From a virus, in the IMG/VR virus record IMGVR_UViG_3300049046_000043, positions 1-39,073 of that record: a stretch of 39,073 nucleotides of DNA; one strand, written 5' to 3'. Each line of letters starts with the position of its first letter. The stretch's first letter is position 1. The translations under genes were made by a program, and so were the position numbers. Of this stretch, positions 18,613 to 18,884 are shown in pieces. A model generated the notes under the pieces. That model saw only the letters and a program-made list of their open reading frames with translations. It did not search any database and was not told where the DNA came from.

Positions 18613-18766
18613 TTGCAAGCTGAAGTCCAGGGACAAAGCGAACCAGAGATTTTCGCGTGCTATCCATTACACTACACTCCCATTGTGGGAGCGTGGGGAA
18701 TCGAACCCCATCCACGTCTGCCAAAGAGAAGTAACTGATTCATTACCACTGGGCTTCAGATTGCAA
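18613..18766 (-). ncRNA. Y RNA-like module B with permuted tRNA-like core
   Basis: The outer stem pairs 18613-18630 with 18749-18766 (17 of 18 positions, including one A-C or G-U position). The core, read on the minus strand, has in order a perfect T-arm (stem TGGGG/CCCCA, loop TTCGATT; 18694-18710), an 8-bp acceptor-like hairpin closed by three bases (18675-18693, one pair being G-U only on the minus strand), and a D-arm with a GG loop (18657-18672). In a tRNA the D-arm comes first, so this is a circularly permuted tRNA shape with the acceptor stem capped, which is how I recall bacterial YrlA RNAs. No anticodon arm is evident in its normal place. Confidence 0.7.
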
Positions 18767-18884
18767 AGTGAGGCGATAGGAAGTTTCTGCTTTGTCACCT
18801 TGACACGTCCGAGGACGTATAGGAGTCGAACCTATTAACTTTTTGAAGTAGGCAGAGACATTACAACCTCGCTTCGCAATCTGA
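18756..18884 (-). ncRNA. Y RNA-like module C with permuted tRNA-like core
   Basis: The outer stem pairs 18756-18773 with 18867-18884 (16 of 18 Watson-Crick, one further pair G-U on the minus strand and one mismatch). An inner helix (minus GTCTCTGC with GCAGAAAC, one mismatch) takes the place of an anticodon stem. Next on the minus strand come the T-arm (ATAGG-TTCGACT-CCTAT, 18819-18835), the acceptor-like hairpin ACGTC-CTCG-GACGT (18805-18818) and a short D-arm with GG in its loop (18794-18804). The left strand of the outer stem overlaps that of module B. Confidence 0.7.

Follow-up and report, generated by a model that had tools for sequence, protein, structure and literature searches.

Chen et al. 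2014 (RNA 20:1715) reportedly listed probable Y RNAs close to Ro60 for over 250 species of bacteria and phages, each species having at least one Y RNA with a tRNA-like domain. The closest described RNA is the bacterial Y RNA YrlA, the two ends of which pair into a stem bound by Rsr, the ortholog of Ro60, and the remainder of which mimics three tRNA arms (D, T, and acceptor; structure 6CU1, PMC8394870). The same paper covers the modification of YrlA by DusA and TruB and the tethering of polynucleotide phosphorylase (PNPase) to the Rsr ring, and a second source reports YrlA from several phages (PMC7765460).

The locus analyzed here very probably encodes a phage Ro ribonucleoprotein that consists of Ro60 and an upstream array of Y RNAs, among which one RNA (B) is of the YrlA type and another (C) has a reduced core.

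The Ro60 gene and the upstream RNA array

The whole stretch of DNA analyzed, hereafter the window, is a virus record of 39,073 bases that carries tailed-phage genes, including those for the large terminase, a gp3-like packaging protein, NinG, and endonuclease VII. The product of one open reading frame (ORF) was identified as a Ro60 (Rsr) ortholog (Table 1) based on matches to the Pfam TROVE (E = 8.2e-26; 91.6 bits against a cut-off of 23) and vWA_Ro60 (E = 2.8e-9; 37.6 bits against a cut-off of 27.7) families. A profile of this protein and seven viral relatives matched Rsr of D. radiodurans (2nvo) and Ro60 of Xenopus (1yvp). PADLOC contains no Ro60 entry. Elsewhere in the window (858–7679, minus strand), sugar genes are clustered, encoding glycosyltransferases, an aminotransferase, a C-methyltransferase, a cupin, a cytidylyltransferase-like protein, and a nucleotide-sugar epimerase.

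Directly upstream of ro60 lies a row of RNAs, four (A–D) or perhaps five (with E), each closed by its own long stem; ro60 is the next gene after the B and C modules and is encoded on the same (minus) strand. Modules A–D share the motif (U/G)GUAA-N-UAC(U/A)UC, located in the 5′ strand of the stem. This Ro60-linked motif was not found in module E, a very stable hairpin of ~20 bp, the sequence of which is not obviously shared with the corresponding stretch of the nearest related locus (L001, see below). A BLASTN search with the whole array against annotated phages yielded no match, and Rfam searches of the whole window at the curated cut-offs returned two tRNAs only. A structural scan of the window matched B and C alone, both on the minus strand; as an estimate of chance, the scan gave 5 matches when 1.16 Mb of loci were reversed and both strands searched.

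Table 1. Ro60 gene, RNA modules, and core elements in the window
Feature	Position	Strand	Description
Ro60/Rsr ortholog	16988..18490	-	500 aa; TROVE ring and vWA domain
Y RNA A	18531..18603	-	Short stem-loop, motif UGUAACUGAACGGUUACUUC, without tRNA-like core (sequence, fold)
Y RNA B, YrlA-type	18620..18759	-	Basal stem CTGAAG../..CTTCAG, inner helix, permuted tRNA core
B D-arm	18657..18672	-	GUGU-AAUGGAUA-GCAC; loop contains GG
B UA linker	18673-18674	-	Between acceptor-like hairpin and D-arm
B capped acceptor-like hairpin	18675..18693	-	8 bp, 3-nt loop CAA, one G-U pair
B T-arm	18694..18710	-	UGGGG-UUCGAUU-CCCCA; 5 bp, loop UUCGAUU
Y RNA C	18757..18883	-	Basal stem CAGATTGCGAAG../..CTTTGCAATCTG, degenerate tRNA-like core; basal stem and motif common to L001 C RNA
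C core	18794..18835	-	T-arm 18835-18819, acceptor-like hairpin 18818-18805, short third hairpin with GG 18804-18794
Y RNA D	18886..19016	-	Long basal stem, motif UGUAACGUCGUCGUUACAUC, without tRNA-like core (sequence, fold)
Module E	19074..19185	-	Long hairpin closed by GGTGTGG/CCACACC; array membership uncertain

Permuted tRNA cores in the array and in related Ro60 loci

The preliminary description of this DNA recognized a circularly permuted tRNA core in B and C, in the minus-strand order T-arm, acceptor-like hairpin, D-arm. For B, every element is present in the sequence: read on the minus strand, positions 18710–18657 are TGGGG TTCGATT CCCCA, CGCTCCCA CAA TGGGAGTG, TA, GTGT AATGGATA GCAC. 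The G-U pair that had been noted in the acceptor helix is its second pair, and the fourth pair of the D-stem is likewise U-G. Secondary structure prediction, proposed at the time as a check, places all three hairpins in both the minimum free energy (MFE) and the centroid folds, with the basal Ro stem enclosing the core. Folding energy was not taken as proof because it is similar for the plus (z = -2.9) and minus (z = -2.5) strands of B; taken alone, the fold of B is weak evidence.

Decisive evidence came from a covariance model (R1) derived from 47 cores of other genomes, with the window left out. B was the top match of R1 in the window (53.9 bits, E = 8.3e-15), with an alignment that runs from the T-arm through the capped acceptor hairpin to the D-arm. 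For C, the claim of a permuted core stands in part. The T-arm and the acceptor-like hairpin (5–6 bp, loop of 2–4 nt) appear in the MFE fold (z = -5.1) and were the only parts aligned by R1 (18835–18805; 16.7 bits, E = 0.0011). The third, D-like hairpin, GUCA-AGG-UGAC, is too small, its loop having 3 (or 5) nt and the two-base linker being absent, and was left unaligned. C is best described as a Y RNA in which the B-type core is reduced or decaying.

As an independent test, we used 117 distinct cores picked from DNA flanking viral and bacterial Ro60 genes by their T-loop and D-loop motifs, leaving acceptor pairing out of the selection; this set, drawn from 80 phage and bacterial Ro60 loci, replaced an earlier motif selection with fixed spacing, which was too narrow (16 cores). 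Acceptor pairs 1–6 were paired in 89–98% of the 117 cores, versus 41–49% for pairs 2–6 after shuffling and 79% for pair 1, the composition of which is strongly biased. In an alignment of 47 of these cores, those from which R1 was derived, 97.3% of the cells were paired versus 67% after shuffling, the covariation score was 0.813 versus 0.212 (0.08–0.16 for slid versions), and 7 of the 7 acceptor pairs varied on both sides. The motif TAC[TA]TC occurs within 70 nt upstream of 107 of 116 cores, versus 5.7% at random places, and its positions peak sharply 17–20 nt before the T-arm; in B, it lies 17 nt before the T-arm. Among 80 viral Ro60 loci, R1 detected permuted cores in more than 40, and it did so in most of the bacterial loci, where the weaker matches include tRNA junctions. 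The arrays comprise one to about seven units per locus, and some loci, for example L046, L145, and L162, contain cores downstream of Ro60.

All but one of the 117 cores (116) are on the strand of Ro60. This shared orientation, together with the independent model and the covariation in relatives, gives good support to the earlier view of B as a permuted tRNA core transcribed from the minus strand; folding energy does not discriminate between the strands.

The nearest relative of the locus, L001, encodes a Ro60 that is 75% identical to that of the window and is preceded by RNAs in the same order. The Ro stem and motif of its B RNA are nearly letter for letter those of the window. The cores differ on both sides at 11 of the 16 compared positions, with the T-loop and the GG kept; 10 of these changes lead to another standard pair and one to an A-C mismatch in the acceptor helix. 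In the L001 C RNA, a short, plain hairpin occupies the place of the tRNA-like core. From this comparison of sequences, selection seems to act on the shape of the B core, and the tRNA-like core of C looks optional.

Identity, possible function, and alternatives

B is almost certainly a Y RNA. The preliminary description was right about the permuted tRNA core of B but missed this identity and the adjacent Ro60 gene; because the RNAs are Y RNAs of that gene, the permuted shape is expected rather than new.

The present analysis shows the sequence, fold, homology, covariation, linkage, and orientation of the locus. What the tRNA mimic could do during infection is suggested by YrlA: it might tether an effector to the Ro60 ring or gate the cavity of the ring, a plausible but tentative proposal. 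By analogy, Ro60 would bind the basal stems of the Y RNAs, and the far end of B, with its T-arm, capped acceptor hairpin, and D-arm, would present the tRNA mimic, the basal stem leaving where an anticodon arm would be. The T and D loops would touch, and no end would be open to aminoacylation; such a contact, already envisaged in the preliminary description, agrees with the published YrlA structure (6CU1; PMC8394870), and for B itself it is a prediction from that homology. The tRNA-like end could then dock a host protein that recognizes tRNA or structured RNA, such as PNPase, TruB, or Dus-type enzymes. The partner would belong to the host because no phage-encoded candidate was detected: the window ORFs scanned included neither a PNPase gene nor one for RNA repair. 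The docked protein would be tethered to the ring, as PMC8394870 reports for PNPase and YrlA, or the ring would be gated.

An alternative role, which concerns function and not identity, is that of a decoy: the main task of the tRNA-like RNAs would be to bind anticodon nucleases or other tRNA-binding defense proteins of the host and thereby protect phage and host tRNAs, with Ro60 stabilizing the RNAs. The tRNA-like domain of YrlA has been proposed as a possible competitive inhibitor of anticodon nuclease (PMC7790460), phages carry RNA-repair genes for such conflicts (PMC7824862), and the type of D-arm often differs between copies in multi-copy arrays. We nevertheless consider this role unlikely. 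B and C lack an anticodon arm, so that an anticodon nuclease would have to bind via the body and elbow only. The copies within one array may imitate different tRNA families, judging from their sequences. A more specific and still less probable version is that the array would serve as a set of different tRNA decoys, all without an acceptor end, against host defenses that target tRNA, with cores swapped in from tRNA genes while the Ro stem was kept; it builds on the D-stem types GCUC/GAGC, GUCU/GGAC, GUGU/GCAC, and others, with matching linker bases.

The hairpins could also be read as a structured leader of the ro60 mRNA, that is, attenuators or translation controls and not separate RNAs. Their position just ahead of ro60, on its strand, would fit this reading, and promoter and terminator scans returned nothing usable, with no separate promoter or terminator. 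However, each module is a self-contained, stem-closed unit, array size varies from one to about seven units, and the cores downstream of Ro60 in loci such as L046, L145, and L162 count against this reading because a leader cannot lie downstream; we regard it as very improbable.

Least tenable, to the point of being hardly credible, is the origin of B and C as remains of tandem tRNA genes, the junction of which also runs from a T-arm through the 3′ and then the 5′ acceptor strand to a D-arm: arm order alone does not exclude it, because R1 also matches the tRNA-Phe/tRNA-Thr junction of the window (24633–24582, minus strand; 47.1 bits, second best in the window), as expected from two tRNA genes in a row giving the same order, but it was rejected because the self-paired acceptor hairpin covaries in the 117 Ro60-linked cores and no tRNA surrounds B, where ARAGORN and Rfam detected none (nor at C), the acceptor strands self-pair over 8 bp (3 of the 7 pairs at the tRNA junction are non-standard), and the basal Ro stem surrounds the core. 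Such junctions can mislead model searches, and YrlA cores may have evolved from them.

A separate observation concerns the arrays with at least two cores, in which one copy often has the D-stem GCUC/GAGC and another GUCU/GGAC, GCCC/GGGC, or GUGU; these mixed arrays include L003, L035, L039, L067, L109, L120, L125, L127, L131, and others.

Comparison with known systems

On this explanation, the locus holds a known kind of RNA next to the protein already known to accompany it, now in a further phage. An uncultured phage that combines a Ro60 gene with several Y RNA copies in an array is added to the record, and the covariation across about 80 loci shows the permuted tRNA core to be the common form beside Ro60 in phages and bacteria. 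This wide distribution and the differing D-arm types within arrays are worth following.

Among other RNAs with rearranged tRNA parts, B resembles permuted tmRNA and the tRNA-like domain of tmRNA in its T-arm and acceptor-like helix, with weak Rfam matches of 20.8–21.7 bits. Unlike tmRNA, B has no CCA end or tag reading frame, its acceptor end is closed by a loop, and the matches are far below the cut-off; ARAGORN and Rfam searches over the cut-offs found no tmRNA at B or C. The permuted-tmRNA, beta-tmRNA, and tRNA-Sec identities were all rejected on such scores far below the cut-offs, the weak matches being due to the T-arm. Split or permuted archaeal and algal tRNA genes likewise contain tRNA parts in rotated order in the DNA. 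The product of those genes is a normal mature tRNA, whereas nothing restores an acceptor end or anticodon in B or C.

Similar phage Ro60 loci occur in Xanthomonas phage 10KY502B and Caulobacter phage CcrColossus, which share with the window a TROVE gene, a Y RNA array just upstream, and several permuted cores, but encode Ro60 proteins about 31% identical to that of the window. The annotation of these phages omits the RNAs or, for some of them, gives single tRNAs (tRNA-Thr, tRNA-Gln). About five unannotated Y RNAs, three with a permuted core, precede Ro60 in 10KY502B (L172 1800–2490), where the annotated tRNA-Thr (L172 2322–2389) overlaps a Y RNA core at 2365–2416. In CcrColossus (L173 1536–2422), R1 gives five permuted-core matches before the TROVE gene, and the annotated tRNA-Gln (L173 1667–1734), which may be a wrong call, overlaps one of them. 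Small-genome phages such as 10KY502B would be tractable for tests of the benefit of the Ro ribonucleoprotein.

The Rfam YrlA model (RF02553) scored B at 19.5 bits, under its gathering cut-off of 69, and gave no match at the cut-off in the 23 other Ro60 loci tested. Because it thus misses all the Ro60-linked loci tested, the model seems far too narrow for Ro60-linked cores, and B belongs to the YrlA class but falls outside the RF02553 family as curated. With Salmonella YrlA (RF02553, 6CU1), B shares the linkage to Ro60/Rsr and a basal stem formed by both ends, and with the Rfam YrlA consensus, the order of T-arm, tiny-loop acceptor hairpin, two-base linker, and D-arm with GG. It differs from that consensus in the sequence of the acceptor stem and in the D-stem GUGU/GCAC, and the locus differs in encoding several Y RNAs in a row.
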